Assembly (NCBI RefSeq): GCF_014803405.1
Contig: NZ_JACYFG010000061.1
Location: forward strand, 124,001-188,000
Direction: 5' to 3'
Origin: Pelagicoccus enzymogenes
GTDB lineage: Bacteria; Verrucomicrobiota; Verrucomicrobiia; Opitutales; Opitutaceae
Length of the DNA: 64,000 nt
Below are positions 1,831-33,291 of this stretch, piece by piece (positions within the stretch are counted from its first letter, which is position 1; the number at the start of each line of letters is the position of its first letter). The notes beneath the pieces are model-generated. The model had not been told where the DNA came from and did not search any database. It was given only the letters and a program-made list of their open reading frames with translations. A program made the position numbers and the translations under genes.

Positions 1831-1846
1831 TCCCCAAAACGGGGGA
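1831..1846. promoter_or_regulatory. Candidate operator, TCCCC(C)-N4-GGGGGA palindrome, site 1
   Basis: The sequence is tccccaaaacggggga, with one mismatch in the left arm relative to the best copies. It lies between the divergent FG-GAP protein and the GH31 gene, about 208 bp upstream of the GH31 start. Spacing is identical to four other intergenic copies in the window. Nothing else recognisable occupies 1762-2053. The NarL-type regulators encoded at 12650 and 15773 are the obvious candidate binders; this is inference. Confidence 0.5.
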
Positions 1847-2053
1847 TATTGAGAACAACAATCAGGAGCGTTCCGAGCCAGAGGCGACAACCCTCACTTG
1901 CCCGCTACCCCACAACCAGATTCCCACCTTCGCTTTCGCGACCAAGATCGCTCCTACCTCTTCTAACGATTAGCAACCGGTTCCCGTTGACCGGGATCCC
2001 CTTCGCCCAAGCATATCCCTTTCCCCGGCAAGAACTCCAAACACGCTACGCCC

Positions 2054-4267
2054 ATGCCCTATGCCTTTTCACGCTCCCTGCAAGCAGCTGCCACGCTGGC
2101 CGCCCTGCTTCTGGCAACTCCGCTTGTCCAAGCGGCTAAAACCCTCTCCGCGCCCAGTGGCGAGCTAACCTGGCAGGACGACGGTTCCGTGCAGATCACC
2201 CGGAGCGGAGCGACAATCATCGACTTGCAGCAAATCCGCTTCGACTACCATGCGCCGCTTAGCGTCAAGCTGATCGATGCCAACGACCATTCGATCCGCG
2301 TTGCCCTGTCTTTTCCGGCCGCTGTCGACTTCCGCTCCCGCGCAACCGAGCCGCTGGATATCGAGCTCACCATGAGCCGCCACGGCGACGGCTTTCGCTT
2401 CTACGCCGACGCGGAATGGGGCAACCAAGTGACCCTCGATTTAGCCGATACCGGCGACCACGTCTTCGGCCTCTCCTCTCCCCTGCAGCCGGAGAACCGC
2501 CACTCGCCAGACCTGCGCGAGTCGAGCGTCACCGTCGAAGTAACCAATGCCGCCCAGACCATGGTGGAAAACTTCGCCTCCGCCTTCTCCTCCTTCTACA
2601 TTAGCAGCCATGGCTACGGAGCCTTCTTCGATACCTTCGGAGCTGGACAATACGATTTCGCCATCAACGGCCGCCACAAGATCCATCACGAAACCGGCAC
2701 CCTCGACTGGTATGTGTTTTTTGGAGACGACGGACGCGCCATCCACCAAGCCTACTACGAGCTCATAGGAGCCCCCAAGTCCCTCCCCCTCTGGGCCGTC
2801 GGCCCCGTGGGCTGGCGCGACCAAAACGATGGCGGAGCCGCGGAAATCCTCGACGACCTCCAGCGCTTCGAAGACCTACGCCTGCCCTTCACCTCCTGGT
2901 TCGTGGACCGTCCCTACAGCGACGGAGCCAACGAATGGTCGCTCATGAACTTCAACGCCAAGTTCGCCAAGCCCGAAGAATGGATCTCCACCATCCGCGA
3001 GGACCACGGCATCGAGTTCATGACCTGGACCGCCACCGCCTTCTTCGGTGACACCCCCATGCCAAAGCACTTGCCCGGCGGCTTCACCTACGCCGATTTG
3101 AGCGACCCCGCCACCGTCGCCCTCTACCAGCAAAAGCTCACCGAGCTGCAACACTCCGTCGGCGTGAAAGGCCACAAGATGGACCGAGCCGACGAGCATC
3201 TACCCAATTGGGAAAAGTGGGCCGACGAAACCGTTGCCATCGGCGAACGCCGCAACAAGTACGCCTACCTCTTCGCCAAGACCCACGACGAGTCCCTGCG
3301 CCGCACCTGGGGAGACGACCAGTTCACCTTCTCCCGCGCCGCCATCCACCGCGCCCAGCCCTACCTCAGCGCCATCTGGGGAGGCGATCCCCGCACCAGC
3401 TGGCAAGGCCTGCAAGGCAACGCCGCCAATGCCATGCGCGCCTCCTTCATGGGCTTCCCCGTTTGGGGCACAGACGTCGGCGGCTACCTCGGCCCAGGCT
3501 ATATCGACACCGACCTCTACCTGCGTTGGACCCAATTCGGCATCTTCAATGGCCTGCTCGAAATCAAGTTCGACGGCTCCGGCGGCGACGGCCCCGACCG
3601 CATGCCTTGGAGCTACGACAAAACCTTCCAATCCGACTTCCGCGAGCTGCTCGAGCTCCGCATGGCCCTCCTGCCCTACCTGCACTCGCTGGCCAACACC
3701 TCCGCGACAAACGGCCCGCTCATGCAGCCGCTCGCCTACCGTCACCTCGACGACCCCAACACCTACGACATTTGGGACCAATACTACGTCGGCGACGGCC
3801 TACTCGTCGCACCCGTCCTGACCCCCGGCACCGCACGGGAAGTCTATCTGCCCGCCGGAAAGTGGTACCGCTTCGATTTCGCCGAAGGCGTGCAAAGCGC
3901 CCACGAAGGGCAGCGAGCGATGGGCGTCCAAGCCGCCCTGGACGAGATCCCACTCTTCGTCCGCGCCAACAGCCTCATGGTCACCGGCGACATCTACCGC
4001 GGCAACAGCCGCAACTGGCTCGAAGGCGAAGCCAATACCCTCGTCATCCATGCCTTCCCCGGCGGGATCGGCGAACAAACCAGCTTCACCTACATCGACA
4101 GCAAGGACGACAACAAGCCCAAGACGATCACCCTAACTCGCACTGACGAGTCCGTGAAGGTAGTTGCTCCCGAGCTCACGCAAGAGGTAACGATCGAAGT
4201 TTACCTCGACGGCAAAAAGCAGGTCAAAACTGTCCCCGCCGGAGCTCCCTTGGAAGCCACGTTTTAA
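2054..4267 (+). CDS. Secreted GH31 family alpha-glycosidase (alpha-xylosidase/alpha-glucosidase type)
   Basis: The product has 737 residues with a Sec signal peptide (residues 1 to about 27, ending VQAA). It has the GH31 layout: an N-terminal beta-sandwich, a TIM barrel from about residue 235, and C-terminal beta domains. The likely nucleophile segment is GHKMDRADE near residue 375 and the likely acid/base segment WGTDVGGY near residue 472. The first differs from the textbook KTDFGE or WxDMNE motifs, so the substrate is uncertain. GH31 enzymes of this length remove terminal alpha-xylose, alpha-glucose or alpha-galactose from oligosaccharides. Candidate operator site 1 precedes it. A small hairpin (ACGTTC-N4-GAACGT, 4281-4296) follows the stop but lacks a T run. 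Confidence 0.85.
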   Translation: MPYAFSRSLQAAATLAALLLATPLVQAAKTLSAPSGELTWQDDGSVQITRSGATIIDLQQIRFDYHAPLSVKLIDANDHSIRVALSFPAAVDFRSRATEPLDIELTMSRHGDGFRFYADAEWGNQVTLDLADTGDHVFGLSSPLQPENRHSPDLRESSVTVEVTNAAQTMVENFASAFSSFYISSHGYGAFFDTFGAGQYDFAINGRHKIHHETGTLDWYVFFGDDGRAIHQAYYELIGAPKSLPLWAVGPVGWRDQNDGGAAEILDDLQRFEDLRLPFTSWFVDRPYSDGANEWSLMNFNAKFAKPEEWISTIREDHGIEFMTWTATAFFGDTPMPKHLPGGFTYADLSDPATVALYQQKLTELQHSVGVKGHKMDRADEHLPNWEKWADETVAIGERRNKYAYLFAKTHDESLRRTWGDDQFTFSRAAIHRAQPYLSAIWGGDPRTSWQGLQGNAANAMRASFMGFPVWGTDVGGYLGPGYIDTDLYLRWTQFGIFNGLLEIKFDGSGGDGPDRMPWSYDKTFQSDFRELLELRMALLPYLHSLANTSATNGPLMQPLAYRHLDDPNTYDIWDQYYVGDGLLVAPVLTPGTAREVYLPAGKWYRFDFAEGVQSAHEGQRAMGVQAALDEIPLFVRANSLMVTGDIYRGNSRNWLEGEANTLVIHAFPGGIGEQTSFTYIDSKDDNKPKTITLTRTDESVKVVAPELTQEVTIEVYLDGKKQVKTVPAGAPLEATF

Positions 4268-4316
4268 AAGGCAGAGATCCACGTTCCTTTGAACGTATTC
4301 AAATAGGTGGCACAGG

Positions 4317-4533
4317 CGTTCCGCTCCGGCACATATCGCCCGCGGAGCGGCCGATCCACCTGAGGTAGCGCCCGCTGTCCCAGCGGGCGCAAAACACCAT
4401 CGCATCCGCCACCCCCGAAAGGTGGGACGGCTGCTCCGCAGACGTCTAATCGGCCCCACGTCAATCTGCGCCAGATCAAGAAGAATAAGCCCCGCCAAAA
4501 TTCTCCCTACCTCAAAACCCGGTTGGTTCGATA
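4317..4533. repeat. Direct repeat copy 1: palindromic element plus duplicated GH2 gene tail
   Basis: About 217 bp, repeated imperfectly at 4590-4806. Inside is a nested palindrome. The outer arms at 4337-4361 and 4420-4444 are near-complementary (one starts cgcccgcggagcgg, the other ends ctgctccgcagacg). A perfect 10-bp stem with a 3-base loop lies at the centre (4368-4390, GCGCCCGCTG / CAGCGGGCGC). The right end reads, on the minus strand, as the last codons of the neighbouring GH2 gene (IEPTGF-stop against IEPIGF-stop). Neither strand has a T run after the hairpin, so a plain terminator role is doubtful. It resembles a REP/BIME-like element; no transposase is nearby. Confidence 0.75.
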
Positions 4534-4589
4534 CCTTCACCGTACCGATCAGCCTCAGCCGCAAACCGAATACGAAAATATCGTACAGT

Positions 4590-7997
<3,408 letters not shown>

Positions 7998-8056
7998 CTA
8001 TTATCTGGATACAGGGCTTTTTACAATGATCGGGCGGCCCTGGAGGCCCGCAGGGA

Positions 8057-9388
8057 TTAACGGACTCCCAGCTGGCGCTGCAAATCTTCTAGAGGCACTC
8101 CCTTCGTCTCGGGAACCATGAGCTTAACCCATACGAGCTGCAGGACCATCATGCTGGTAAACAAAAGGAAAACGTAGCCGGGAGCCATAAGCTCCACCAT
8201 TTTGGGAAAGACCGAGGTCAGCAATGCTGCGAATACCCAGTGCGTTCCGCAGCCCAGCGAAGTGCCCGCACCGCGATGGCGATTCGGAAATATCTCCGCG
8301 ATAAAAACCCAAATCACCGCTCCCTGCCCGACGGCGTGTGCCGCTATGAAAGCGAAGATGCAAAACGGTACGATGCTGTAGTGCTCCGTAAAAAATGCCC
8401 ATGCCGTAAGCCCCAAGGACGCGATGTACCCAAAGGAGCCGATGTACAAAAGAGCGCGCCTCCCCGCTCTATCGATGAGCCAAAGTCCCACGAAAGTGAA
8501 TACGAGGTTTGCAACTCCGATACCGACCGATTGCAACAAAGCAGCTCGCTCGCCCAAGCCGGTGAGCTCGAAGATACGAGGGGCGAAATACAAGATGGCG
8601 TTGATACCTGAAAGCTGGTTAAAGAGAGCAATGAGAAAAGCCAAGGCAACCGGCTTGCGGAGCTTGCGGGACCACAGGTGAGTGCCGCCCTTTTCTTCGA
8701 CGCCGGAGGCGTTCGCGATCTCCGCAGCTTCGGCTTCGATATCCTCCTTGCTAGCTTCCGGTCGAAGGCGCTGCAGCACCGCAATGCCAGCGGCACGGTC
8801 GCCCCGTTGAGCTATCAGCCAACGCGGACTTTCCGGAAGCCCAAAACAGAGGACCGAATAAATGATAGCGGGCACTGCTTCCACTCCTAGCATCCACCGC
8901 CATGCGTTTTCGTCGCCGACTTCTCGGATGATCGCATTGGATAGAAATGCCACTAGGATGCCGAAAACGATGTTGAATTGAAAAAGCGCGGTGAGGCGTC
9001 CGCGACGTTCAGGCGTAGCAATCTCCGCGATGAACATGGGAGCCGCGACTGTGGATACGCCCACTCCGAGCCCTCCTAGGAAGCGAGCGATGATGAACAT
9101 CGTTACATCGGTCGATAGTCCTGACCATACGGCGGAGACGAAATACAAAGCTCCAATCCCTATCAAAGTTGAACGGCGACCTAATCGATTCGTGGGCCAC
9201 CCCCCGAATAGCGCGCCAATCACCGTGCCATAAAGAGCCGAGGCAATAGCAATGCCGTGCAAGGAAGCGCTAAGCCCCCACAGCTCCTGGATACGTTGCT
9301 CCGCACCAGAGATGACTACAGTGTCGAAACCAAAAAGAAATCCGGCAAGGGCCGATGTGAGTGACCAGAAAAAGAGGCGGGAGGGCAT
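8057..9388 (-). CDS. MFS sugar porter (sugar:H+ symporter family)
   Basis: About 443 residues with twelve predicted membrane segments in the inner membrane. Sugar-porter signatures are visible: GFLFGFDTVVISG in helix 1, the loop RLGRRST, PESPRWL after helix 6, and PETKG at the C-terminus. Family members import hexoses or pentoses with protons. The frame extends upstream to an ATG at 9463, but that start would place the hairpin at 9448-9474 inside the coding region. The ATG at 9388 (MPSRLFFW) begins directly before helix 1, so I chose it. It lies between a GH2 enzyme and a TonB receptor on the same strand, consistent with uptake of a released sugar. Confidence 0.9.
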   Translation of the reverse strand: MPSRLFFWSLTSALAGFLFGFDTVVISGAEQRIQELWGLSASLHGIAIASALYGTVIGALFGGWPTNRLGRRSTLIGIGALYFVSAVWSGLSTDVTMFIIARFLGGLGVGVSTVAAPMFIAEIATPERRGRLTALFQFNIVFGILVAFLSNAIIREVGDENAWRWMLGVEAVPAIIYSVLCFGLPESPRWLIAQRGDRAAGIAVLQRLRPEASKEDIEAEAAEIANASGVEEKGGTHLWSRKLRKPVALAFLIALFNQLSGINAILYFAPRIFELTGLGERAALLQSVGIGVANLVFTFVGLWLIDRAGRRALLYIGSFGYIASLGLTAWAFFTEHYSIVPFCIFAFIAAHAVGQGAVIWVFIAEIFPNRHRGAGTSLGCGTHWVFAALLTSVFPKMVELMAPGYVFLLFTSMMVLQLVWVKLMVPETKGVPLEDLQRQLGVR

Positions 9389-9439
9389 CGGGATATGAAT
9401 TGGGTCAAATAAAAATGCTATGCGACGAGGATATAGATA

Positions 9440-9474
9440 CAAGCAAAGATCGCCCGCAGACAACCCGGGCGATC
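9440..9474 (-). terminator. Likely rho-independent terminator after the TonB receptor gene
   Basis: Read on the minus strand, a perfect 9-bp stem GATCGCCCG / CGGGCGATC encloses a 9-base loop and is followed by TTTGCTT. It lies 32 bp after the TonB receptor stop codon and before the preferred start of the sugar porter. Confidence 0.65.
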
Positions 9475-9505
9475 TCGCTTGTTTTAACTACAAACTACCC
9501 TAAAA

Positions 9506-12214
9506 TTAGAACTGATAGTTAACTCCTGTGAAGAACGTCGTGCCCGAGCTAGTGGTGTTGTAGAGACGGCGGGCAACCAAGTCAGAGTACTGTTCTTCGC
9601 GTTGGTTCGTCAAATTGATCGCGTCGAAGGTAAGCTTGAGCTTGTCGTTTATCTGGTAGAAAGCAGAGAAGTCGACATAGGTGGTTGAATTGAAGCCGTC
9701 ACCAAACTCGTCGTTCCCGATAGCCAACGGCCAGGCGACATAGCCTTGTCTGTAATTTGCGGATACGCGGGCTCCCCAGTTATTGGTTTCGTAGTAAAGC
9801 GTCGCGTTGCCGAGCTTCTTGGAAAGACCAGAGATCGGAGAAACATGCGAGATACCTTGAGCTTGCTCAGCGGGGCTGGCGTAGTCGAGCTCGCCATCGA
9901 TGAAGGAGAGGTTTCCGATGAAGCCGAACTTGTCGAAGGGCGCGGGGAGGAAGTCCAGGTCCGACTGCAAGGAGAACTCCAAACCGTCGATCGAGCTGTC
10001 CTCGTAGTTGATTGGGCGACGGAACTCCGCAACGTTAGTGCTGTTAGTCAAGCCAGGCAACAGGTCGAGCGGAAGACCGGTTTCGCTGTACGGGATGTCG
10101 GTTGCGAGGTCAGTGCCAATGAATCCGGAAATGTCCTTGCGGTAGACTCCGACTGCGAACGATCCCACTTCTCCGAAGTACCACTCGAGGGCGACATCGA
10201 TGTTGTCCGAGTAGTAAGGCTGCAAGCTTGGGTTACCCATGCTGATGGTTACTTCTCCATTGCTTTCAGAAACACTGCCGTTAACCGCGAGCGAACCGAG
10301 CCCAGGGCGGTTGATGTTCTGCGAGATCGCTGCACGAAGGAGCAAATTCTCGCGAAGTTCGAAAGTCGTGTTGAGAGCGGGAAGGATGTCGTCGTATCCA
10401 CTTTTCACTACAATGTCACCGATGTTAGCTCGACCGGAGGATTTGATAGAGGTATCGAAGGCACGGACACCAACGTTTCCAGTGAATCCGATTTCGCCCA
10501 ACTTGGAGGACCACTCATACATAAAGTATGCAGCGTCGGTGCTCTCTTCCACTTCATAAACGTTTTGGATGGATCCAGGATCACGAGTGAGTCCGAGGTG
10601 GGTCAATGCCTTGTCGAAATCTGCAATCGCCCAGTCTTGGTCCTTGTGGTCAGTGAAAACCACCGCGTATGCGCTCACATCGTCGTCAACTGCCCCGGAT
10701 TGGAAATCGGAGCGGAGCACGTTGTCGTTGCGCTGGATGTAACCATCGTTCGAGAACTTTTGGTGCGAAGCGCCGAACTTGAGTTGGGATCCGCTTGCAA
10801 GGAAGTAGGTGAAATCCGCCTTCACGTTGTCGAAGTTGGTTTCCTGATACGAGGCGGCGAAGTCAATTTCATGGGCCCTCCAGTTATCCGGATCAGTGGT
10901 GTCGAAGCCCCATGTGTTGTGAAGATAGAATGGGTCCTGCGTGTAGTCGGAGACAACGTCTCCAAATGTCTCGAAGTAGAACTTGTCGCTAATGGGAATA
11001 TCGAAGGAAGACGTTTCCGTACCGACTAGAAAATCCGCCCTGAGATTGTCGTTTATACGCCAGTCACCGCTGAGTACAATTTGGTCGAAAGTGTTTTCTG
11101 CATGTTGACGACGTGTTTCTACGGCCGCGTTACCGCCCGAGACATCCACGTAAACGACCTCTCCCGTGTCCTTGATTTCGATGTCGTTAATGACAGAATT
11201 TGGATACGTTACGCCATCGACAGTGGTGCCACCACCAAGCCAAGAGGAGGAGTTCGAACCGCGTGAGTTCAAGTGAATCTCGCTACGGTCGCTGGAGAAC
11301 TCGCCGTGAAGGATGTCGAGCGTGAGCATGAGGTCATCGCTTGGCTTCCACTGGAACGCGCTAGTGAGGCCAAGGCGCTCTTGATCGCTACCCCAGGCGG
11401 ATTGACGATTACCGCGAGCCCAGCGGGTTTCGCCGTTGTTGATCTTGGCTTGCTCCTCGGCTGTCAGAGCAGATATGTCGCTGCCTTGAGCTGAAGAAGA
11501 GGGACGCCAACGGTAGGTATTAGTGCCCTGCTCCACTGTCTCACGTTGCGAGTAGGCCACCGAGAACAGAGCGCCAAAGGTATCATCCCAGATATTGGAG
11601 ATCTGGAAGGCGGTGCGTGGCTGGAAGTCGTCCGTGTAAGTGTTGGTGCCGACCTTAGCTGAAAAACCAGCATTGAAGCCATCGTAATCAAACGGCTTGG
11701 CAGTATGGAGACCAACGGTTCCCGCTAAGCCTCCTTCGTTTTGGGTAGCGTCCATGCTCTTGTAAACGTCGAGACGATTGAAGAGCTCGGATGCGAAAAT
11801 GTTGAAGTCGAATGCGCGGTCGCGGCTGCCTTGACCACGACTGTCCTGCGGAGAGTCGACATTGCCGAGAACCTCCATGCCGTTTAGCTGCACACGGGTG
11901 AAGTCGGGCCCGAGCCCGCGCAACGATACACGACGACCTTCGCCCGCTTCGCGATTGATGGCGACGCCGGGAAGGCGCTGCAGAGACTCTGCCAGGTTGA
12001 GATCCGGGAACTTTGCGATGTCTTCAGCGACGATCGAATCGCTCACGATCTTGGACTCGCGCTTGAATTCACGAGCTTTGATGAGCGAGGCGCGAGTGCC
12101 GGAAACGACAAATTCGTCGAGCTCGAATACGTCGGAATCATCAGTTTCTTGTCCGAGCGCATGAAAGGCAGGCAGGCACAATGCCGCCGCAAGCAGTGGG
12201 GATACTAGTTTCAT
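9506..12214 (-). CDS. TonB-dependent outer-membrane receptor (carbohydrate uptake type)
   Basis: The product has 902 residues with a signal peptide (ending near HALGQ). The TonB box-like region DVFELDEFVVSGTRASL is followed by a plug domain with FPDLNLAESLQRLPGV and VSLRGLGPDFTRVQLNG. A beta-barrel ends in an aromatic residue (FFTGVNYQF), as expected for an outer-membrane protein. The plug resembles the TonB receptor class first described for Caulobacter, often linked to plant polysaccharide use. It would import oligosaccharides across the outer membrane with energy from TonB-ExbBD, whose genes are not in this window. An inverted repeat sits 24 bp before the start. Confidence 0.92.
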   Translation of the reverse strand: MKLVSPLLAAALCLPAFHALGQETDDSDVFELDEFVVSGTRASLIKAREFKRESKIVSDSIVAEDIAKFPDLNLAESLQRLPGVAINREAGEGRRVSLRGLGPDFTRVQLNGMEVLGNVDSPQDSRGQGSRDRAFDFNIFASELFNRLDVYKSMDATQNEGGLAGTVGLHTAKPFDYDGFNAGFSAKVGTNTYTDDFQPRTAFQISNIWDDTFGALFSVAYSQRETVEQGTNTYRWRPSSSAQGSDISALTAEEQAKINNGETRWARGNRQSAWGSDQERLGLTSAFQWKPSDDLMLTLDILHGEFSSDRSEIHLNSRGSNSSSWLGGGTTVDGVTYPNSVINDIEIKDTGEVVYVDVSGGNAAVETRRQHAENTFDQIVLSGDWRINDNLRADFLVGTETSSFDIPISDKFYFETFGDVVSDYTQDPFYLHNTWGFDTTDPDNWRAHEIDFAASYQETNFDNVKADFTYFLASGSQLKFGASHQKFSNDGYIQRNDNVLRSDFQSGAVDDDVSAYAVVFTDHKDQDWAIADFDKALTHLGLTRDPGSIQNVYEVEESTDAAYFMYEWSSKLGEIGFTGNVGVRAFDTSIKSSGRANIGDIVVKSGYDDILPALNTTFELRENLLLRAAISQNINRPGLGSLAVNGSVSESNGEVTISMGNPSLQPYYSDNIDVALEWYFGEVGSFAVGVYRKDISGFIGTDLATDIPYSETGLPLDLLPGLTNSTNVAEFRRPINYEDSSIDGLEFSLQSDLDFLPAPFDKFGFIGNLSFIDGELDYASPAEQAQGISHVSPISGLSKKLGNATLYYETNNWGARVSANYRQGYVAWPLAIGNDEFGDGFNSTTYVDFSAFYQINDKLKLTFDAINLTNQREEQYSDLVARRLYNTTSSGTTFFTGVNYQF

Positions 12215-12237
12215 AAGTAGGTATTTTGGGGATACAA

Positions 12238-13321: not shown

Positions 13322-13395
13322 TTATTTAGAGAGAAACTGTAAACCGACAGTGCGACTTAGGACTCAAAACTAACATAGATACGGTCTCCTGCCCC

Positions 13396-13411
13396 TCACC
13401 CATTCGGGGGA
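13396..13411. promoter_or_regulatory. Candidate operator, TCCCC(C)-N4-GGGGGA palindrome, site 2
   Basis: The sequence is tcacccattcggggga, with one mismatch in the left arm. It sits in the divergent control region between response regulator 1 and the sensor kinase, which suggests autoregulation of the two-component system. Confidence 0.5.
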
Positions 13412-15738: not shown

Positions 15739-15772
15739 CCCCGTATTCACTTTTTCAAACACACTATACAAG

Positions 15773-19784: not shown

Positions 19785-19931
19785 ACTTGTGCGTATTGGG
19801 GTTGGTAGATCGAGGTAAAGTGGTGCCGCATCGCCTTCCGCGCGCGACGAATTCAACTACTGGTTTCCGTTCTGCGGATACAACAGTGGAGCGAGACTCC
19901 CTTTTCGGGAGAGCTTTCTAAATTTTGAACA

Positions 19932-19968: not shown

Positions 19969-19987
19969 ATGCTACCGCTAAGCGGTA

Positions 19988-22900
19988 CTAAAAACGAATG
20001 GTATTGCTGATAGACCAGCGCGTCTCACCCGGAATACGGACTTGAGCGATTGATCCATCTGGATTCGCGCGAACGGGAATCAGCTCATCGTCGGCAAAGA
20101 GGTCGTAGACATTTAACTGGATGGACCAGCTCTTATCGCCTCCGATCTCGGTTTCATAGGATACCCAAGCATCGACGTAGTCCTCACTTGACCCCTTGAT
20201 GGGATTGCTGAGGTCGTTGACCCAAGCGTTGGCATCTGCGTCGTACTTCGGATAGTAGCCCAAGTTGGACTCATCCATCCAACGGTAGGCGCCACCGATG
20301 CCAAGGCCCTTGAACTTGCCGTCTACGAAGCTGTAGTTGGTGATTAGATTGAAGTGCCACTCTCTCAGTTCATTGACCAGCTGACCTTCAGTCGCCTTCG
20401 CCTGGTAGTACTTGGCAAGGATCTCAGAACCGTAACCTGTTCCAAGGCGACCACCGGTACCCAACTGGTTGCCTGGAGATTCTGGTATATCGTAGAAGCC
20501 CTTGATGGACCAGTAGTCCATGCCTGGCTCGTCGTAGAGCGCGTATCCACCATCGAACCACATGTCCATGCTGTTCTCGATGTACTCGTCCCACGCCGCC
20601 AGTACGTTGGAGCGTACCGCTTCAGCCTTGGAGGCGTTGAAGGTCACACGCCAGTTGTCCAGAGGATTAGCTGTGAATTCGTATTCGATACCAGTGGACT
20701 CAAGGTTGTTGAGGCTTCGTGAAGTGCTGGGAACCTGCCATGCGGTCAGCTCCCAGAATCCACCCCAAGCCGCTTCGATGCGCTCGAAGTTCATCGCATC
20801 CCAGAATACTGGGTCTACTGGATTGGACCACTCCGCATCCGAGCGAGCGCGGTACCACTCGGAACGATAGGCCACTTCTTCCGCGGTGAGCGGGGGAGCG
20901 ACGTAGGGAAGGTCGAGGTCCGGATTGATGTCGCCCTGTGCGACATAGTTGGGGGAACCTGGAACGGCTGCAGCGCGGATGCGGAGCGGCTGGTTCATGA
21001 TTTCAGGATTGTCTCTCCAATCCGCAGGCAACGGCGTGTTTGCGACTGCGGAATCGTAGTTGCCTTCGCCAAACATCCAGTTGTTGACCACCCACTCTGG
21101 GGTAGGTTGCCAACGGTTCGCTGCAGCTTCGTCGGTCTCAGGAAGCGCGCCCCAATGAGGGCCGATTTCCCACATCATGCCGTCCATGGAGCGGCCGAGG
21201 ATAGCCTTGTTGCGGTTAAAGGCAGGAGCGTCTCCGATGAAGGGAGTGTTCTCTTGAGTCGTCTTGTACTTGGTGACGCGCAGGGAGAACTTGTTGTCCA
21301 TAGCAGAGAGCAAAAGGCTCACGTCACGAGTGTTGCCCGAAGGATTCGCCTCTTGTCGATTGTAGACGTCAGTCGCCACATCCGAAGGACGGAAACTGCT
21401 GGAATCGTTGAAGAGCAGGCTCACTCCCATGCCTTTCGGCAATTCGCGGCCGAACAGATTGAGCAGTTCCTCGCCATGCAAGGCCACGCTCCAGCTGCGA
21501 CGCTGCGCAGAGGCAATGATCGGGACACTTCTCTCCGAGTCGTAGACCCAATTGTCGCTGTATGGCAACACGTTGTTGTAAATAGCGTCTCTCCCGAACT
21601 CGGTCATCACACCGTCAACTTCGAAGCGAGTTGGGGACGGCTTACGGTAAGCTTCGTAATCATCCTCGCGCCAACCGAAGATCGGGACGATTGCTCCGTT
21701 GAGCATGTCGCCCTGCCAAACGAAGACCTTGGAGTCGGTCACGTCGTAACCTTCTCTCGCTCCGTCGTAGAGCTTGTCCAAGTCGGTCTGCCAATTCAGG
21801 AGGCCGAAATTGCTTTGGCCCCACTCCCTGCCACCTTCATCATTGAAGCCGAAGGCGAGGACGGACTGGTTCAGAGCTGGGTTTTGGGAGGCCGTTACAC
21901 CGGTAACTCCAGTGATCTGGTCCATGGATGTCGTATCCAAAATGCTATCGCTGAGGTAATGGATGCCGCGCCAGGTTGCGTAACCAGGACGAGACCATCC
22001 TAGATCTTCAGAGAACTGTTCGTCCCAGCGATACATCGCAAAGTTTCGATCGAAGTAGTCAAACTTCTGCGAGGAGGCTACACCAGTAAAAGTGTGCTTA
22101 CCCAATACCGTGGCGAACAAGCTGTCAGAGTCGAAGAAGTCATCTCCCGACACTTCACCAAACACGGTGGCGCGCCAGTTCTCACGCTTCTTCTCGAAGA
22201 TACCACCGCGCCCTTCGCCAATCGTGAAGAGACGACCTACGTTCGGGTTGTTGCCCTCACCGCCGCGAAGCGATTCGTTAATGTCGATGGAAATGATGTT
22301 TCCACCCCAGAGGCCTTCCATTGCGTTGGTGTATCCAGAACGGTATGACTGGTCGTTGTATGCGAAATTCCAGCCCAAGCGACCATCCAAGTAGGTTTGG
22401 GTGGCGACTATGTTGAAAGTTTCAAAGTCGTTGAACTCCGACTTGTTGGGACCTACCAAGTTTTGCTCACGAACCAATTCAGCGATCGGACCGTCGATGA
22501 TCATCTGAGTCGGCCACATGCCTTGGCCGAAACCGCGGAATGAGCGGCCGGTAAGGTTTTCATAGCCATCGATGATTCCCGAAACCACGGGGTTGTTCGC
22601 GTAGTATGCGGCTTGGTTCTTCTCATGGTTACCGTTGCCCAATTCCCAATTGGGGTTGGTCAAGCCGACGTAGCTGCCCCAGCCTCCGCCGTTCACATTG
22701 TTCCAACCACGCAGTACCATCGCATCCGGACCGCCGGGAACGCCAACTGCAGCATTCGTTGGGTCGCCGTAGAAGGAAACAGGATGGTCATCCCAGACCT
22801 GGCCACCCACCGACTGAGCTCCGTAGATCGCCTCGTGAGCGCCAAAACCAGCAAGACCTTCGGCATCGCCGGGATCCGTCCAGTATTCGTCGTTTGTCAC

Positions 22901-23821
22901 AATGTTACGGTCAGTCGCACCATACCAGTTGGTAAGGAAGTCCGCTGGCGTACCTGCCATGGGGCGGTTGGCGTTGATTTGCCCCCACTCGCCATTGGCA
23001 TCAATCTGTGTGAAGACGCCTTCGCCCAGATTCGGCTGCCAGCGTAAAGCAGAGTAGATACGGCGGTCGTTGTTGAAAGTTCCCTTTTGACGAAACTTCG
23101 CCTCGTCGTTCAAGGCCACCACACGGATCGACAATTCGTCCTCGATGATCGTCTTGTTGAGGTCAACCATGCCGCGGATGGATCCGTAGCTGTCGAACTT
23201 CAGCTCTACAGAGCGCTCGTCACCCGCCATCATTGGGGTCTTGAGCGTGTTGTTGATAAGGCCAGCGGGGCTTCCCAAACCAAAAAGGATCGAGTTAGGA
23301 CCACGGCTGATGTCCACGCGATTGAGGCTGTACCAGTCGATTGGAATATCAGTTGGGAAGAAATCGCGAGTGATGTCCGCGCTGTTCAATCCGCGTATAC
23401 GAGTCGTGCGGTGCGGCTCGACCAAAATATCCCGGGCGTGTCCCTTGTCCCACGTATCGCCGCCGTAGAAGTTGCCTTCCACCCCAGCCACTTCCGTGTT
23501 GGTGGTGTAGACAAGAAGCTTTTGCAGGTCCGTAGCGCCGACATCCTTCATGAACTCCGGGGTGATTGCTTGCACGGCAGCCGCGATATCACGCAACTCC
23601 GTATTCAATCGGGATCCGGCAAGCGAGGATGTCGCCATGTAACCAACGTCGTCGCTGCCAGTTACCTCAAAAGGTGACAGCTCATAGATTTCGTCCTCTT
23701 CTTCCTCATCGGAAGTTTGGGCGAACAAAACTGGCGAAACCAGAGTCAAAGCACCTAGCGTGGCGAGATATCTCGGGCTACGGTACCTTCGTGGGGTTAT
23801 GTTTTTTTCGAATCTACTCAT
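19988..23821 (-). CDS. Very large TonB-dependent outer-membrane receptor
   Basis: The product has 1277 residues, longer than most TonB receptors and in line with oversized receptors in Verrucomicrobiota. A signal peptide (ending VLFAQ) precedes an acidic stretch with EEEEDEIYELSPFEV, the usual conserved start in this phylum. The plug domain contains TRIRGLNSADITRDFF and RVDISRGPNSILFGLGSPAG. The C-terminus WSISNTIRF ends in Phe, typical of outer-membrane barrels. It is divergent from the GH2 gene at 24486 across a 664-bp region with two candidate operators. The likely role is uptake of oligosaccharides released by the neighbouring enzymes; the substrate is unknown. Confidence 0.9.
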   Translation of the reverse strand: MSRFEKNITPRRYRSPRYLATLGALTLVSPVLFAQTSDEEEEDEIYELSPFEVTGSDDVGYMATSSLAGSRLNTELRDIAAAVQAITPEFMKDVGATDLQKLLVYTTNTEVAGVEGNFYGGDTWDKGHARDILVEPHRTTRIRGLNSADITRDFFPTDIPIDWYSLNRVDISRGPNSILFGLGSPAGLINNTLKTPMMAGDERSVELKFDSYGSIRGMVDLNKTIIEDELSIRVVALNDEAKFRQKGTFNNDRRIYSALRWQPNLGEGVFTQIDANGEWGQINANRPMAGTPADFLTNWYGATDRNIVTNDEYWTDPGDAEGLAGFGAHEAIYGAQSVGGQVWDDHPVSFYGDPTNAAVGVPGGPDAMVLRGWNNVNGGGWGSYVGLTNPNWELGNGNHEKNQAAYYANNPVVSGIIDGYENLTGRSFRGFGQGMWPTQMIIDGPIAELVREQNLVGPNKSEFNDFETFNIVATQTYLDGRLGWNFAYNDQSYRSGYTNAMEGLWGGNIISIDINESLRGGEGNNPNVGRLFTIGEGRGGIFEKKRENWRATVFGEVSGDDFFDSDSLFATVLGKHTFTGVASSQKFDYFDRNFAMYRWDEQFSEDLGWSRPGYATWRGIHYLSDSILDTTSMDQITGVTGVTASQNPALNQSVLAFGFNDEGGREWGQSNFGLLNWQTDLDKLYDGAREGYDVTDSKVFVWQGDMLNGAIVPIFGWREDDYEAYRKPSPTRFEVDGVMTEFGRDAIYNNVLPYSDNWVYDSERSVPIIASAQRRSWSVALHGEELLNLFGRELPKGMGVSLLFNDSSSFRPSDVATDVYNRQEANPSGNTRDVSLLLSAMDNKFSLRVTKYKTTQENTPFIGDAPAFNRNKAILGRSMDGMMWEIGPHWGALPETDEAAANRWQPTPEWVVNNWMFGEGNYDSAVANTPLPADWRDNPEIMNQPLRIRAAAVPGSPNYVAQGDINPDLDLPYVAPPLTAEEVAYRSEWYRARSDAEWSNPVDPVFWDAMNFERIEAAWGGFWELTAWQVPSTSRSLNNLESTGIEYEFTANPLDNWRVTFNASKAEAVRSNVLAAWDEYIENSMDMWFDGGYALYDEPGMDYWSIKGFYDIPESPGNQLGTGGRLGTGYGSEILAKYYQAKATEGQLVNELREWHFNLITNYSFVDGKFKGLGIGGAYRWMDESNLGYYPKYDADANAWVNDLSNPIKGSSEDYVDAWVSYETEIGGDKSWSIQLNVYDLFADDELIPVRANPDGSIAQVRIPGETRWSISNTIRF

Positions 23822-24017
23822 CTATATTTGTGAGTTTGGTTTGTTAGTTTACAGTAGGTTGCATCGCGGTGTCGTCGCAACGCGCAGGGGCACGAGTACC
23901 CAACGAAACAATGATATTTCTTGTATGATGCCCCTAGGAGGAGCGGGGCGACTGAGGAAAACATCAATTCGTGGGGTAGTGGTGCCATAAAGTAGCAAGA
24001 CTTGCCCTTTCACTCAA

Positions 24018-24033
24018 TCCCCCAATCGGGGGA
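24018..24033. promoter_or_regulatory. Candidate operator, TCCCCC-N4-GGGGGA palindrome, site 3
   Basis: The sequence tcccccaatcggggga has perfect arms. It lies 197 bp upstream of the divergent TonB receptor start, closer to that gene than to the GH2 gene. Confidence 0.6.
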
Positions 24034-24281: not shown

Positions 24282-27614
<3,333 letters not shown>

Positions 27615-27631
27615 ATAAACGACGAACCGGA

Positions 27632-27654
27632 GTGCCCCCTTGACATGAGGGGGA
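27632..27654 (+). terminator. Possible terminator or processing hairpin between GH2 and GH43 genes
   Basis: CCCCCT-N7-AGGGGG forms a stem just after the GH2 stop, with a T run (ttttt) only about 20 bp later. A second small hairpin, GGTGAG-N7-CTCACC, lies near 27694, just before the GH43 gene. These may trim or attenuate transcription between the genes. Confidence 0.35.
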
Positions 27655-27738
27655 CGTTCAAAGCGCTCCCCTTTTTATCCTAACGTTTCAAGAAAGGTGA
27701 GGCTTTATCTCACCCCCACCCTCACAGAAAGTTAAAAG

Positions 27739-29574
27739 ATGAGATTTCTAGCATCCACCCTAGTTCTTTCCACCGTATTGCTCACGACCGCGTCATGCAC
27801 TAAGGAACCCTCTCAAAAAGAGACGGCTAAAGACGCCTATTTGCTCACATCCTTTCGAGACAACGGAGATGGCCTCCACCTCGCCTACAGTTACGACGCC
27901 AAAGACTGGACCGATCTCGACACGATCTATCTGAAACCAAAAGTCGGCTCAAAGCTCATGCGCGACCCCGACATCAAGCAAGGTCCAGACGGTACCTACC
28001 ACATGGTTTGGACCAGTGGTTGGGGCGACCTTGGCATTGGCTACGCCTACTCGAAGGACCTGCAAAACTGGTCCGAGCAAAAGTTCATTCCGCTCATGGA
28101 AAACTTCGAAGGCGCCAAACTCTGCTGGGCTCCCGAACTTTTCTTCGACGAGGCCAAACAACAATTCCTCATCGTTTGGTCCACCGCGATCGATAACGCT
28201 CCTACTCCAGACGACGAATTCCGCGCCTACTACTCCCTGACGAAGGACTTCGAGAGCTTCACGGATCCCGCCCTCTTCTTCGATCCTGGTTTCAACAACA
28301 TCGATACCACGCTCCTGAAGCAGGGTAGCGCCTACTACGCCATCCTCAAGGAAACGGACGACCAAGGGGCCCAAGACTACGGCTCGATCTACGCCGCCAA
28401 AGCCGAAAGCCTGCTCGGTCCTTACACCCTGCTCGAGTCTCCCATCCTACGCAAGGAGCAAGCCGAGGGTCCCACCGTGGTGGATACAGCTGAAGGCGTC
28501 GTCGTTTACTACGACTACTACGTAAACCACCGCTACGGCGGAAAGATATCGAAAGACTGGATACAGTGGGAGGAAGTACCGGGAGACATCGCTTTCCCCG
28601 ACGGCCAACGCCACGGTTCCATCCTATCCGTACCCTTAGAGCTCGTAGAATCCCTACGTTCTCAAGCTGCCTCCGTGGCGCCCCAGCCTGCCCTGAAAGG
28701 CGAATTCACCGCCGACCCCGCCATCCGCGCCTTCGGCGACCGCTATTACATTTACCCCACCTCCGACCGCCCCTACTGGAATACCAAGGAGTTTGCGGTC
28801 TGGTCTTCGCCCAACCTCGTAGATTGGGAGAAAGAAACCGTTTTCATGGACCTTCGCCACGATGTGTCCTGGGCCAACAACAAGGCATGGGCGCCCGACT
28901 GCATCGAAAAGGACGGCAAATACTACTTCTACTTCTGCGGCGAGCATAGCATTGGCGTCGCCGTCGCCGACTCCCCTACCGGTCCGTTCCACGACGCCCT
29001 CGATCGCTCGCTCATCGACAATGAAAAGATCAAGACCTTCAGCATCGACCCCTACGCCTTCATCGACGACGACGGCCAAGCCTACCTCTACTTCGGCAAC
29101 GGTACACCCACTGTGTATCGACTAAACGATGACATGATTTCCTTTGACGGCGACCCTGTGGAGTTTCCGTTGAAAGACTTCCGCGAAGGCATCGTGGTTT
29201 TCAAACGCAACGGACTGTACTACTTCATGTGGTCCATCGACGACGCCCGCAGCCCCGACTACCGCGTCGGCTGGGGCACCTCGACTTCCCCTTACGGCCC
29301 CGTCACCACTCCCGAAGAGAACTTCATCGTCCTCCGCCAAAACGGCCCTGCCCAAGGCACCGCCCATCACAGCATCGTCAACGTCCCCGGCACCGACCGC
29401 TGGTACGTCGCCTACCATCGTCACGCCATACCCGGCGGTGGCGGCTACAAGCGCGAAACCTGCATTGTCGAGATGAAGTTCGACGCCGAGGGCAACATCC
29501 TTCCCATGGATCCGATGTCCGACCCGTTCGCCGATAATCCCGCTGGGGAGCCAATCTCGCTATCCGCAAAATGA
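27739..29574 (+). CDS. Lipoprotein with two tandem GH43-type five-bladed propellers
   Basis: The product has 611 residues. The N-terminus ends in a lipobox-like TASC with Cys20, so it is probably lipid-anchored. The first propeller (about 30-320) has candidate catalytic acids in MRDPDIK (~75), NNIDTTLL (~188) and AEGPTVV (~242). The second (about 322-600) has the classic GH43 triad in FTADPAIRAF (~325), FSIDPYAF (~436) and FREGIVVF (~482). GH43 enzymes act on arabinofuranosides, xylosides or galactans; the substrate cannot be fixed from sequence. Its TGA stop overlaps the ATG of the next gene (ATGA), so the two are translationally coupled. Confidence 0.88.
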   Translation: MRFLASTLVLSTVLLTTASCTKEPSQKETAKDAYLLTSFRDNGDGLHLAYSYDAKDWTDLDTIYLKPKVGSKLMRDPDIKQGPDGTYHMVWTSGWGDLGIGYAYSKDLQNWSEQKFIPLMENFEGAKLCWAPELFFDEAKQQFLIVWSTAIDNAPTPDDEFRAYYSLTKDFESFTDPALFFDPGFNNIDTTLLKQGSAYYAILKETDDQGAQDYGSIYAAKAESLLGPYTLLESPILRKEQAEGPTVVDTAEGVVVYYDYYVNHRYGGKISKDWIQWEEVPGDIAFPDGQRHGSILSVPLELVESLRSQAASVAPQPALKGEFTADPAIRAFGDRYYIYPTSDRPYWNTKEFAVWSSPNLVDWEKETVFMDLRHDVSWANNKAWAPDCIEKDGKYYFYFCGEHSIGVAVADSPTGPFHDALDRSLIDNEKIKTFSIDPYAFIDDDGQAYLYFGNGTPTVYRLNDDMISFDGDPVEFPLKDFREGIVVFKRNGLYYFMWSIDDARSPDYRVGWGTSTSPYGPVTTPEENFIVLRQNGPAQGTAHHSIVNVPGTDRWYVAYHRHAIPGGGGYKRETCIVEMKFDAEGNILPMDPMSDPFADNPAGEPISLSAK

Positions 29575-30263
29575 AGCATACCAGCGTCCTTCTCATTTCC
29601 GCAGCGCTTTCGCTGCCTGCAAGCCAAGCGAAGGTCCCCGAAAACGCAATCGAGCCCGGCGAGGCTCCTCACTCGTCCAACCCGATCTTGCCAGGTTATT
29701 TCGCGGACCCATCCGTAGTTGAATTTGAAGGACACTACTTTATCTACGCCACCCTCGATCCCGGGGGTGGCCAAACCTGCTTCGACGAGCTTACGTTCAC
29801 GGACGACGGTCTCATCGCAAAGGTCATCCCCACTCACCAAGGTCCAGAGCTCGTCCAAAACCGACTCGACGGCTCCTTCATCGAGCCGGCCGCCATCACC
29901 GCCTCCAGCCAGCTGAGCGATCGCCACGCTCCAGAACGCGCAACCGACGATAACTACGCCACGCGCTGGGTTCCCGCAGCTGACGACGTGACCCCCTGGA
30001 TACAGATCGACCTAGGTTCCTCGCGAAGAGTTAACCAACTCCAAATTCGCCCCGAATTAACCTGGAAGGACTACCACTTCACTGTCGAAAGTTCCGTAGA
30101 CGGCCAAAACTGGACAGTCGCTGCCAGCTTCCTCGACCAGGCGGCGACCGGTTCGCCCATCATCGTCGAGAGCCCGCCAACCGCCCGCTACTTCAAAGTT
30201 AGCTCTCCCACCACCATAGACTCCATGACGCAGCCATCTATTTTCGAGTGGCAGGTCGAGTGA
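29571..30263 (+). CDS. Internally deleted GH43-CBM32 remnant (discoidin-domain protein)
   Basis: The product has 230 residues. After a signal peptide (ending SQAK) it begins like a GH43 enzyme: NPILPGYFADPSVVEFEGHY and IYATLDP. It then jumps directly to GQTCFDELTFTDDGL and IPTHQGPELV, which in intact relatives lies at the end of the catalytic domain. About 250 residues of propeller, with two of the three catalytic acids, are therefore missing without a frame break. A complete F5/8-type C (CBM32) domain follows (about 105-230; WIQIDLGSSRRV). It may now act only as a secreted sugar-binding protein, or be decaying. It is coupled to the upstream GH43 gene by a 4-bp overlap. Confidence 0.8.
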   Translation: MKHTSVLLISAALSLPASQAKVPENAIEPGEAPHSSNPILPGYFADPSVVEFEGHYFIYATLDPGGGQTCFDELTFTDDGLIAKVIPTHQGPELVQNRLDGSFIEPAAITASSQLSDRHAPERATDDNYATRWVPAADDVTPWIQIDLGSSRRVNQLQIRPELTWKDYHFTVESSVDGQNWTVAASFLDQAATGSPIIVESPPTARYFKVSSPTTIDSMTQPSIFEWQVE

Positions 30264-30394
30264 GCCCTCCGGAATCATTCAGACATCATTCGCACTGCAC
30301 GAACGGGCGTCAGGCCTTATCATCCTTCAAACTGTCAGTGAAAACTCTTTTCGATTCTAAGACACTTAACAGGTAAGCACACGATCCCAATCTT

Positions 30395-32812
30395 ATGACC
30401 CCTTATCTGAAAACGATCCTGACGGGCAGCATTGCTCTCTTCACTGCAACTTTCGCAACCGCGGAACCGATCAACACCGCCCAGCAAATCCTCACCCACC
30501 CGGCATCGGTTAAGGAGATCATGCAGCGGGTCGCCGACTTCCAAGAGCGAGAATTCGGCGGCGTCATCGAGACTGATTGGAAAGTCGGCACCTACTACAG
30601 CGGCCTCTACGCCGCCTACCAAGCCACCGGCGACGAGACCTTCCGCGAAAAAGCCCTCGCCTGGTGCGAAGCCGCCGACTGGAAACTCTCCGAACAACAC
30701 TTCTTCGCAGACGACATCTGCGCCGCCCAAACCTTCCTCGACGTCTACCTCGACGAGAAGCAGCCGCACCAGATAGCCGATACCATCGCCGCCCTCGAAC
30801 CTTACTTCGGCAAGGAAACCATCGCCCGCGAAGAACTCGCCCACGTTGTCTGGAAGGGCGAGCCACGCCCCTTCACCGGCCGCAACGTCTGGTGGTGGTG
30901 CGACTCCCTTTACATGGCCCCTCCCGTCCTCACCCGCATGTATTCGGCCACTGGAGACCAACGCTACCTCGACCTGCTGCATGAAATGTACTGGGACACC
31001 GTCGACTTCCTCTTCAGCGAGGAGGACGGACTCTTCTACCGAGACGAAAGCTACTTCGGCAAAAAGACCCCGAGCGGCAAACCCGTCTTCTGGTCCCGCG
31101 GCAACGGCTGGGTCTACGGTGGCCTCATCCGCACCCTCGATCACCTTCCCGCCGACGATCCCCGCCGCCAGGACTACATCGACCTCTTCGTCAAAATGAC
31201 CCGCGTTCTCGTCGATATCCAACAAGACGACGGCATGTGGCGCCCCGGCCTCATCGATCCGGATTGGAAACCCATGAAGGAAAGCAGCGGCACCTCCTTT
31301 TTCACCTACGGCCTCCTCGCCGGCATCAACCGCGGCTACCTCGACAAAAAAGCCTACCTGCCCGTCGCCCTCAAAGGCTGGGAAGGCCTCGTCAGTTGCA
31401 TCAATACCGACGGCCGCCTCGGCTACGCCCAGCTCGTAGGCGGCGCCCCCGAGCACGTCCGCCCCAGCGACTCCATCGACTACACCCACGGCGCCTTTCT
31501 CCTCGCCGCAAGCGAGCTCTACAAGATGGACCTCACAAACAGCGACTTCGCCGAGCTAGAAGATCCCTACGAAATCAAGCTTCTCGCCCGCGACGGCGTC
31601 TGGACCTGGTTCAACGACGAACGCGTCCTCTATGATGGCGCTGGCCTTTACATCGGCTCCATCGACTCCCAAGGCACCAGCCGCATCGATTACTACAGCA
31701 CCATTCTCGTGCAAAGCCCTTTCGCCTATCGCCCCTACCCGCTTAGCAGCTGGCAGAGCAAGGACGACCACAACAACCCCGCGATCCTCCAGCTCGCCTC
31801 CGGCAATCTCCTCACCGCCTACGCCAAGCACCACCTCGAGCCCGTCTGGTACACCCGCCACGGAACGAAGAAAGGCCCCGACAACTGGCGAACCGTAAAC
31901 TGGTCGGAGGAAAAGGCCATCGAGGCACCCGCCAAAACCACTTACAACAACCTCGTGCAGCTCACCGCCGAAAACGACCGCGTCTTCAACTTCATGCGCT
32001 GCGTCGGCTGGAATCCCACCCTACTCATCTCCGAAGACGAAGGCCAAACCTGGAGCGACCCCATCGAGCTCGTTCGCTCCGGCAACGACCGCACTCGACC
32101 CTACGTCAAGTACGCCAACAACGGCACCGACCGCATCGACCTCATCTTCACCGACGCCCATCCACGCAAGGACCACGAGAACAACGTCTACCACATCTAC
32201 TACCAGAACGAAGCCTTCCACAAAAGCGACGGCACCTTCATCCGTAGTCTCGAAGAGGTGAAGACAAAGCCCCTCCTCCCTTCCGACGGCACCCGCATCT
32301 ACGCAGGCACAGAAGCCGGACGCGGCTGGGTATGGGATCTCGAATACGACAAGCTCGGCCAACCCGTCGCCGCCTTCATCAACTCCGTCGATCACGAAGT
32401 GGGCAACGACCTGCGCTACCGCATCGCCCATTGGGATAACGTATCCAAAACCTGGACCCAGCAGCAGATCGCCTTCGCTGGCACCCATCTCTACGACCGC
32501 GAGGAGCACTACGCGGGAGGCATCGCCATCGATCCGCAAAACACGGATGTGATTTACCTCTCCGCCGACGTCGACCCAGCCACCGGCCAAGCCAACAGCA
32601 CCGGCCGCTATCAAATGTTCCGCGGCACCTTGCAAAATGGCTCTTGGACTTTCGAACAACTGACGAACGACGCCCAAGTTGACAACATTCGCCCCATCGT
32701 CCCCCGCGATCACGACTTCGACAAAATCGCCATCTGGGTCCAAGGCCGCTACACCACCTACGAAGACTACGAAACCTCCATCGTCGGCATCCTGGAGAAG
32801 GCTGAAAACTAA
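30395..32812 (+). CDS. GH105 unsaturated glucuronyl hydrolase fused to a BNR_4-type propeller
   Basis: The product has 805 residues with a signal peptide (ending FATAE). Residues of about 25-390 form an (alpha/alpha)6 barrel of GH105/YteR type, with NVWWWCDSLYMAPPVL near residue 169 holding a likely catalytic Asp, and WSRGNGWVYGGL near 235. GH105 removes the 4,5-unsaturated uronic acid left by polysaccharide lyases. Residues of about 395-800 resemble the BNR_4 seven-bladed propeller family (LLISEDEGQTWSDP is an Asp-box). Some families with this fold are ulvan lyases, so one polypeptide may both cut and trim uronic-acid chains; that part is inference. It ends the forward cluster that starts at 24486. 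Confidence 0.85.
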   Translation: MTPYLKTILTGSIALFTATFATAEPINTAQQILTHPASVKEIMQRVADFQEREFGGVIETDWKVGTYYSGLYAAYQATGDETFREKALAWCEAADWKLSEQHFFADDICAAQTFLDVYLDEKQPHQIADTIAALEPYFGKETIAREELAHVVWKGEPRPFTGRNVWWWCDSLYMAPPVLTRMYSATGDQRYLDLLHEMYWDTVDFLFSEEDGLFYRDESYFGKKTPSGKPVFWSRGNGWVYGGLIRTLDHLPADDPRRQDYIDLFVKMTRVLVDIQQDDGMWRPGLIDPDWKPMKESSGTSFFTYGLLAGINRGYLDKKAYLPVALKGWEGLVSCINTDGRLGYAQLVGGAPEHVRPSDSIDYTHGAFLLAASELYKMDLTNSDFAELEDPYEIKLLARDGVWTWFNDERVLYDGAGLYIGSIDSQGTSRIDYYSTILVQSPFAYRPYPLSSWQSKDDHNNPAILQLASGNLLTAYAKHHLEPVWYTRHGTKKGPDNWRTVNWSEEKAIEAPAKTTYNNLVQLTAENDRVFNFMRCVGWNPTLLISEDEGQTWSDPIELVRSGNDRTRPYVKYANNGTDRIDLIFTDAHPRKDHENNVYHIYYQNEAFHKSDGTFIRSLEEVKTKPLLPSDGTRIYAGTEAGRGWVWDLEYDKLGQPVAAFINSVDHEVGNDLRYRIAHWDNVSKTWTQQQIAFAGTHLYDREEHYAGGIAIDPQNTDVIYLSADVDPATGQANSTGRYQMFRGTLQNGSWTFEQLTNDAQVDNIRPIVPRDHDFDKIAIWVQGRYTTYEDYETSIVGILEKAEN

Positions 32813-32820
32813 CTCGCATT

Positions 32821-33081
32821 AAAGTACCCACTAAGCCGATACAAAGAACCTACCAAGTCGAGCCAGCCAAAGACGGACAGCCAGGCCGCTGGCCCCTAAT
32901 CCTCGACCAATACTCCAAAGGCACCGGCTACCAACCCTACGTCACTGACGACCTTTCGAGCGGGCAATTCACCCCCGCCGAGAACTTCACCTTTCCTTTC
33001 CACTTTCGCCACGGCTCCGTCATTCCCTTGAACCAAGAGGAACTCGAGCGCCTCGAAAAAAAATGGGGCGAGAGCGAGTAA
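32821..33081 (+). pseudogene. Orphan C-terminal fragment of a GH43-like hydrolase gene
   Basis: The frame is open from 32806 to a TAA at 33079 and reads as a coherent protein tail with no start codon. It contains GRWPLILDQYSKGTGYQPYV, TDDLSSGQFTPAENF and RHGSVIPLNQEELERLEKKW. The RHG-[ST]-V-[IL]-P-x-x-x-E-E ending is typical of the C-terminus of secreted GH43-like enzymes. The remaining 5' part of the gene is absent, so this is a relic of a deletion or rearrangement. It fills the first third of the 756-bp gap after the GH105 fusion. Confidence 0.65.
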
Positions 33082-33275
33082 TAAACGAGAGCCAGCGGCC
33101 GCTCTCCCAGCAGCCACAAACACTGCAGGAGCGCGTTACAAGCAGCCGGGATTAAACCCAAATCAGATTCAGCTTTAGCAAGCTAACCAACGACGAACTT
33201 CCACAAAGCGCAGGGCTAAAAAGTCCTGTGCTTTTTTCATGTATCCAGAGGAAAGCCCCTTCCCTAGAGGTAAAT

Positions 33276-33291
33276 TCCCCCGTTTGGGGGG
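33276..33291. promoter_or_regulatory. Candidate operator, TCCCCC-N4-GGGGG palindrome, site 5
   Basis: The sequence tcccccgtttgggggg has perfect 5-bp arms, 278 bp upstream of the GH115 start. A possible -10 element (tgatataaacaat) lies about 30 bp downstream. The rest of 33082-33568 contains no gene that I can support. Confidence 0.6.

Follow-up and report, generated by a model that had tools for sequence, protein, structure and literature searches.

The polysaccharide-utilisation loci (PULs) of the Bacteroidetes combine a TonB receptor, glycoside hydrolases (GH), SusC/SusD and hybrid two-component sensors. Among operators that bear comparison with the element described below, the ComA box (TTGCGG-N4-CCGCAA) is bound by a NarL-family regulator, the NarL operator consists of TACYYMT half-sites spaced 7-2-7 with 6 bp between CCC and GGG, and CsgD, a different regulator, has the non-palindromic half-site CGGGKGAGNKA. 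A paper has dealt with the PUL regulon of B. thetaiotaomicron (PMC3878776), and none of the open-access literature matches listed described an operator or regulon by which Verrucomicrobiota control the use of polysaccharides. The stretch analysed here, called the window, is 64,000 nucleotides of the marine bacterium Pelagicoccus enzymogenes (Verrucomicrobiota, Opitutaceae; contig NZ_JACYFG010000061.1, positions 124,001 to 188,000), and a scan for protein families showed that the region in question is a PUL. A palindrome of the form CCC-N4-GGG recurs between the genes of this PUL. From comparative sequence evidence we give a probability of roughly 0.83 to the reading that it is the operator of two local response regulators, RR1 and RR2, within a conserved two-component regulon that regulates itself and has class II promoters.

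An earlier note on this DNA had listed five such palindromes, and all were found where it placed them, at 1831, 13396, 24018, 24296 and 33276. The 5-bp arms, whose spacing it called identical, are perfect at 24018, 24296 and 33276 but carry one altered base each at the other two, where the left arm reads CACCC (13396) or CCCCA (1831); the CACCC variant is kept in relatives. All five proved to be intergenic, as claimed, once the gene starts had been set, including 1831, which lies within a mechanical TTG open reading frame but counts as intergenic because an in-frame ATG with a signal-peptide-like start follows at 1761. The spacing of 175-280 bp to the start codon holds for GH2, GH115 and the TonB receptor, but not for the genes faced by 1831 and 13396 (70 and 75 bp). 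How significant the set appears depends on the form of the motif used. The pattern CCCCCN4GGGGG with 2 mismatches matched the window 36 times against a mean of 43 in shuffles, and the genome-wide scan that the note had proposed, with at most one mismatch, gave 114 places against 91 for the reversed pattern; both counts are near chance and were rejected as support. TCCCCN6GGGGA without mismatch occurs at 8 places against 5 genome-wide, and the perfect 14-mer at 6 places in the 6.23-Mb genome, 3 of them within the window (binomial p ~2e-5, post hoc). A refined palindrome, TCMCCC-N4-GGGKGA with at most one mismatch and the reversed pattern as control, found exactly the five noted sites in the window and no reversed match.

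The refined form was then followed through the surroundings of 20 of the best kinase loci and two stretches of contig C54 of the same genome, 22 loci in all, plus the window, where it matched 54 times against 0 for the control. Genes were called with our own codon-usage script, which is weak in GC-rich loci; although 86% of this DNA was called coding, 45 of the 54 matches were intergenic (62.5 kb) and 9 fell in the 396.5 kb of called coding sequence (p ~1.6e-30). A strict form, TCMCCCRWWYGGGKGA, occurred at 39 places in 21 of 150 family genomes, with 2 control places. When ten upstream regions of TonB receptor genes were aligned, conservation was clearest at the site, the TTG immediately behind it and the TAnnnT a further 17 bp away; the 13396 site and its TAnnnT are kept in six kinase upstream regions (the window and five others). 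The box is kept across related genera.

The distance between the palindrome and the TAnnnT hexamer, a presumptive -10 element, turned out to be fixed. A total of 51 stretches was scanned (the window, 20 plus 12 selected by kinase and 18 selected by motif), of which 36 gave 68 non-redundant intergenic sites, or 136 flanks, once sites closer than 120-136 bp to the end of a stretch had been excluded, together with the 19 of 87 that fell in called coding sequence. At an offset of exactly 23 bp from the edge of the site, TAnnnT was present in 47 of the 136 flanks, compared with 5 at offset 24, 3 at offset 25 and a background mean of 0.82 per offset at offsets 28-89; flanks of the 19 coding sites had it once at offset 23 and four times at offset 24. 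Counted by site, it accompanied 45 of 68, made up of 39 of the 50 in the window and kinase-selected stretches and 6 of the 18 in motif-selected ones. Clustering at 60% ungapped flank identity leaves 46 groups of these 47 promoters, and common flanking sequence therefore does not explain the peak. The promoters share an extended -10 (G in 80% at -14, T in 63% at -15), G in 80% at -33, and a weak -35. Given the fixed offset, the site would lie at about -51 to -36, and its position, directly next to a weak -35 that a 17-bp spacer separates from an extended -10, is by sequence that of a class II activator, a layout present in those 47 flanks and at four of the five window sites. That palindromes rich in C and G merely cluster by chance in C-rich intergenic DNA, as the scant enrichment of the loose motif forms might suggest, is scarcely credible beside the phylogenetic conservation and is contradicted by the 23-bp peak.

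The same geometry bears on two other explanations. A degenerate -35, an extended -10 and one fixed offset are the usual layout of activator-dependent promoters, while repressor sites are usually variable in position. Repression by the same regulators through the same operator is accordingly unlikely: a site abutting the -35 can also block polymerase, and no -10 lies at the activating distance from 24296, but the degenerate -35, the conserved extended -10 and the single 23-bp offset in 47 flanks speak for activation. Much less probable still is an RNA element, in which the palindrome would act in the transcript as the hairpin of an attenuator or terminator. CCCCC-N4-GGGGG would give a GC-rich stem, yet the site lies upstream of the predicted -10, the stem is broken by conserved variants (RR promoters keep TCACCC opposite GGGGGA), and asymmetric variants are seen in both orientations.

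A promoter matrix trained on 44 promoters, with the window excluded, scored four of the five window sites at 23-41 bits; the next window match reached 12.9 and the reversed-window maximum was 10.8. These promoters, rather than the nearest start codons, were used to set directions, and the assignments to GH31 and to the histidine kinase that had followed from the latter were dropped. The strongest, at 24018, is the predicted promoter of the TonB receptor gene (23989-24033, minus strand; palindrome 24018-24033, -35 TTGAGT, 17 bp, -10 TACTTT at 23989-23994; 40.8 bits). At 13396 the note had placed the site before the two-component system, and it does face the divergent regulator gene RR1, but not the kinase operon (13367-13411, minus strand; palindrome 13396-13411, TCACCCATTCGGGGGA, -10 TAGTTT at 13367-13372; 35.7 bits). 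The 1831 site does not precede GH31, as had been supposed: its geometry (1802-1846, minus strand; palindrome 1831-1846, a 6-bp -35 region, a 17-bp spacer, -10 TAATCT at 1802-1807; 25.0 bits) directs transcription into the FG-GAP/ASPIC gene with its ATG at 1761. For 33276 the assignment to GH115 was borne out by a forward -10 (33276-33320, plus strand; palindrome 33276-33291, 17-bp spacer, -10 TATAAA at 33315-33320; 23.3 bits). Of the divergent TonB/GH2 pair, only the TonB side shows this promoter geometry; the perfect palindrome at 24296-24311 (plus strand), upstream of GH2 (ATG 24486), has no -10 at class II distance in either direction. Its counterpart in genome G110 (L138:8753) is kept in the same divergent arrangement, likewise with no -10 at the offset.

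RR1 (12650-13321, minus strand) and RR2 (15773-16405, plus strand) each have a Response_reg receiver and a C-terminal GerE helix-turn-helix (HTH), which places them in the NarL/FixJ family, and their recognition helices are, as the note had it, nearly identical (TVKSHLKT and TVKSHLKA). The conserved site has the two-fold symmetry that would suit a dimer. Between them lies the sensor histidine kinase (13603-15738, plus strand; HisKA_3 and HATPase_c, with ATG 13603 the likely start), whose relatives at E ≤ 1e-40 were found in 41 of 150 family genomes; the named ones are mostly Pelagicoccus and other Opitutaceae. The kinase is present in 15 of the 21 strict-site genomes, against the 41 of 150 overall (p 6e-6). 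A site with its -10 occurs in 20 of 20 loci whose RR identity is at least 71% (L025 among them was fetched because of its site), and at loci with a K-G/A/N/R-H helix in 1 of 9, through the looser TAnnnA. In 11 scanned stretches a site with its -10 faces an RR gene, which argues for autoregulation. A site with at most one mismatch was present in 29 of 29 K-[S/T]-H loci and 1 of 9 others, where the 29 include L025, L073-L075, whose matches all lie in called coding sequence and are probably chance, and L100, L102 and L107, where the coding status of the matches was not assessed. The link between helix residue and operator is suggestive, and descent and helix residue are not separable in this sample. 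The proposal of a regulon under local NarL-family regulators has good support from conservation, from the geometry of the promoters and from the occurrence of the site together with the kinase/regulator pair, but the original assignments of 1831, 13396 and 24296 need correcting.

The sensor part of the kinase gene (13603-15000) had no Pfam match at E ≤ 0.001. AlphaFold, given an alignment of 30 sequences, modelled residues 53-499 as a nearly all-beta chain with pLDDT 89.7, which we interpret as four tandem OB-like domains; the best PDB matches in a fold search were mainly tandem OB-fold DNA-binding proteins with low TM-score, used for architecture only, with no function drawn from them.

Elsewhere in the P. 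enzymogenes genome, a second PUL on contig C54 carries the same box. The refined palindrome (at most one mismatch) has 56 places genome-wide against 25 for the reversed pattern; 53 of the 56 were examined, and 25 were intergenic and 28 coding by our gene caller. The note had held that a motif equally common in coding DNA would speak against a regulon, and the bare motif comes near to this, but not the site with its -10: TAnnnT or TAnnnA at offset 23 accompanied 8 of the 25 intergenic and 0 of the 28 coding sites. Four of the eight are in the window, two in the C54 PUL, so that 6 of 8 belong to the two PULs, and the others are at C2:185973 and C2:338860; with TAnnnT alone six cases remain, as 33276 and C2:185973 fall out. 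TCCCC-N6-GGGGA has five places outside the window, two of them on C54, where one lies 174 bp before a GH2 gene whose product is 60% identical to the window GH2 (matrix 32.0 bits) and the other 256 bp before a TonB receptor gene (44% identity; 42.9 bits). A one-mismatch site before a GH43-like gene on C54 has no -10 at offset 23. Beside these sites, at L025:7520-8559, is a 292-codon relic in which part of a kinase ATPase domain is fused into the second half of a receiver plus HTH. The C54 sites have thus outlived their local kinase-regulator pair, which suggests control in trans. Sensor-like fragments are visible upstream of the relic, and IS21-type transposase genes (L025:13976-16138) adjoin the second PUL. 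C54 also holds a third kinase/regulator pair (L186:7258-10102; 38% and 61% identical), with a site, TCACCCCATCGGGTGA, between the two genes and no TAnnnT at offset 23. The further sites C2:338860 (L188) and C2:185973 each have a -10-like hexamer at that offset. Two perfect palindromes may be chance: the one at C3:10661, which precedes an SSF symporter gene by about 160 bp, lacks a -10 at offset 23, and the one at C4:58270 scored only 15.1 bits.

Several observations weigh against the proposed class II regulon of RR1 and RR2. A site with its -10 was present in 2 of 7 loci with RR identity 56-61%, and in 0 of 2 distant loci with a K-T-H helix, which had palindromes only; with the 20 of 20 in closer relatives, the association is therefore strong in the close clade and fades outward. 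Shared descent confounds the correlation between regulator and site. The site at 24296 and its counterparts in G110 and G144 lack a fitting -10 at class II distance, and in the matrix scan no site scoring more than 6 bits belonged to GH31 or to the TonB/transporter/GH2 row (4785-12214); transcription from the RR1 promoter could read through into the latter. Apart from the two C54 promoters, matrix scores in 169 kb of further sequence from this genome, chosen mostly because it contains the palindrome, were 23.0 at C2:338860, equal to the GH115 site, 16.8 (C3), 15.1 (C4) and otherwise at most 16.8. The strict site also lies away from the kinase in some of the 15 kinase genomes (G020, G056), and 6 of the 21 motif genomes have no kinase match at 1e-40. 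These six genomes could be explained by another transcription factor that controls PULs and reads the palindrome, the two-component system being one target among others, as the regulator association rests on neighbourhood and shared descent. We consider this improbable, a little more so than repression, as RR genes of this clade have the site next to them in several genera and few sister-system loci, with other recognition helices, carry it (1 of 9 with any site); no other recurring regulator was noticed, although no systematic search for one was made.

Under the reading that RR1 and RR2 are the partners of the adjacent kinase and bind the palindrome, a phosphorylated regulator dimer would bind TCMCCC-RWWY-GGGKGA next to the poor -35 and recruit RNA polymerase where a 17-bp spacer is followed by an extended -10 (TGnTAnnnT). 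This class II activation would switch on the TonB receptor/lectin operon, GH115, the FG-GAP protein and, as a positive feedback, the regulator gene RR1, and would act in trans on the GH2 and TonB genes of the C54 PUL. The same box beside several PUL promoters very probably lets one two-component regulator co-activate these operons. Site, geometry, directions, conservation and co-occurrence are read directly from the sequence; what we infer from them is that a regulator binds, that it is phosphorylated and activates rather than represses, and that the inducer derives from a polysaccharide. More tentatively, and on balance doubtfully, there may be a family-wide PUL regulon of the Opitutaceae, in which a kinase sensing through four OB-like domains in a row drives regulators of the NarL type that read a distinct operator, CCC-N4-GGG, the choice of operator is set by the residue following K in the recognition helix (K-[S/T]-H or K-[G/A/N/R]-H), and a second PUL with an eroded pair is wired in trans to the surviving system. 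When the search was extended to the class, 19 places turned up in 16 of the 212 genomes outside the family, compared with 2 for the control. Of the ten of these places that became loci (L189-L198), two adjoin a regulator relative and none has TAnnnT at offset 23 (TAnnnA is there in L190 and L195), so nothing is claimed beyond the family.

The order of genes in the window PUL is FG-GAP/ASPIC protein, GH31, GH2, sugar transporter, TonB receptor, RR1, kinase and RR2, followed by a lectin/LamG protein, TonB receptor, GH2, GH43, F5/8 protein, GH88 and GH115. Arabinogalactan and glucuronoarabinoxylan are candidate glycans, guessed from this enzyme set. The predicted target of the 1831 promoter, the FG-GAP/ASPIC-UnbV frame (4-1761, minus strand), continues past the edge of the window. 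The second TonB receptor gene (19988-23821) and the ricin-lectin/LamG gene downstream of it (16581-19856) share the minus strand and, by strand and spacing, likely form one operon. On the plus strand, the row of GH2, GH43 (with a BT_3657-like N-terminal domain), F5/8 protein and GH88 (24486-32812), downstream of 24296, appears operon-like on the same grounds, and GH115 (33569-38566) is the predicted target of the 33276 promoter. An ECF-type sigma factor gene (38744-39439) at the end of the PUL has no palindrome site of this kind.

What the analysis offers is a concrete operator with a promoter layout, direction and target list, for whose testing a single regulator and a handful of promoter fragments would suffice; it also allows genes responsive to the same signal to be predicted in other Opitutaceae. 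In receiver and GerE HTH, RR1 and RR2 resemble the NarL/FixJ family, with VraR and NarL as the best solved relatives and entries that we take to be LiaR DNA-binding domains among the best structure matches for the HTH. The helix lysines and the ACCC/GGGT half-site resemble NarL, but the 7-2-7 heptamers are not found here, and the gap between CCC and GGG, 4 bp by the pattern that defines the site and kept in alignments, contrasts with 6 in NarL. With the ComA box the site shares 6-bp arms, a 4-bp gap and a NarL-family reader, but the half-site differs and the physiology is unrelated; with the CsgD half-site, for which a literature search by phrase found no paper, it shares the core GGGKGA. As in Bacteroidetes PULs, a TonB receptor and glycoside hydrolases go together with a local sensor and regulator, but there is no SusC/SusD pair (no SusD match at E ≤ 0.001 among the 17 window proteins scanned, TonB receptors being present), and in place of a hybrid two-component system, with kinase and DNA-binding regulator in one protein, separate genes encode a kinase with a predicted tandem OB-like sensor and NarL-type regulators. 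The type of system is already known, and the proposed regulon is new.

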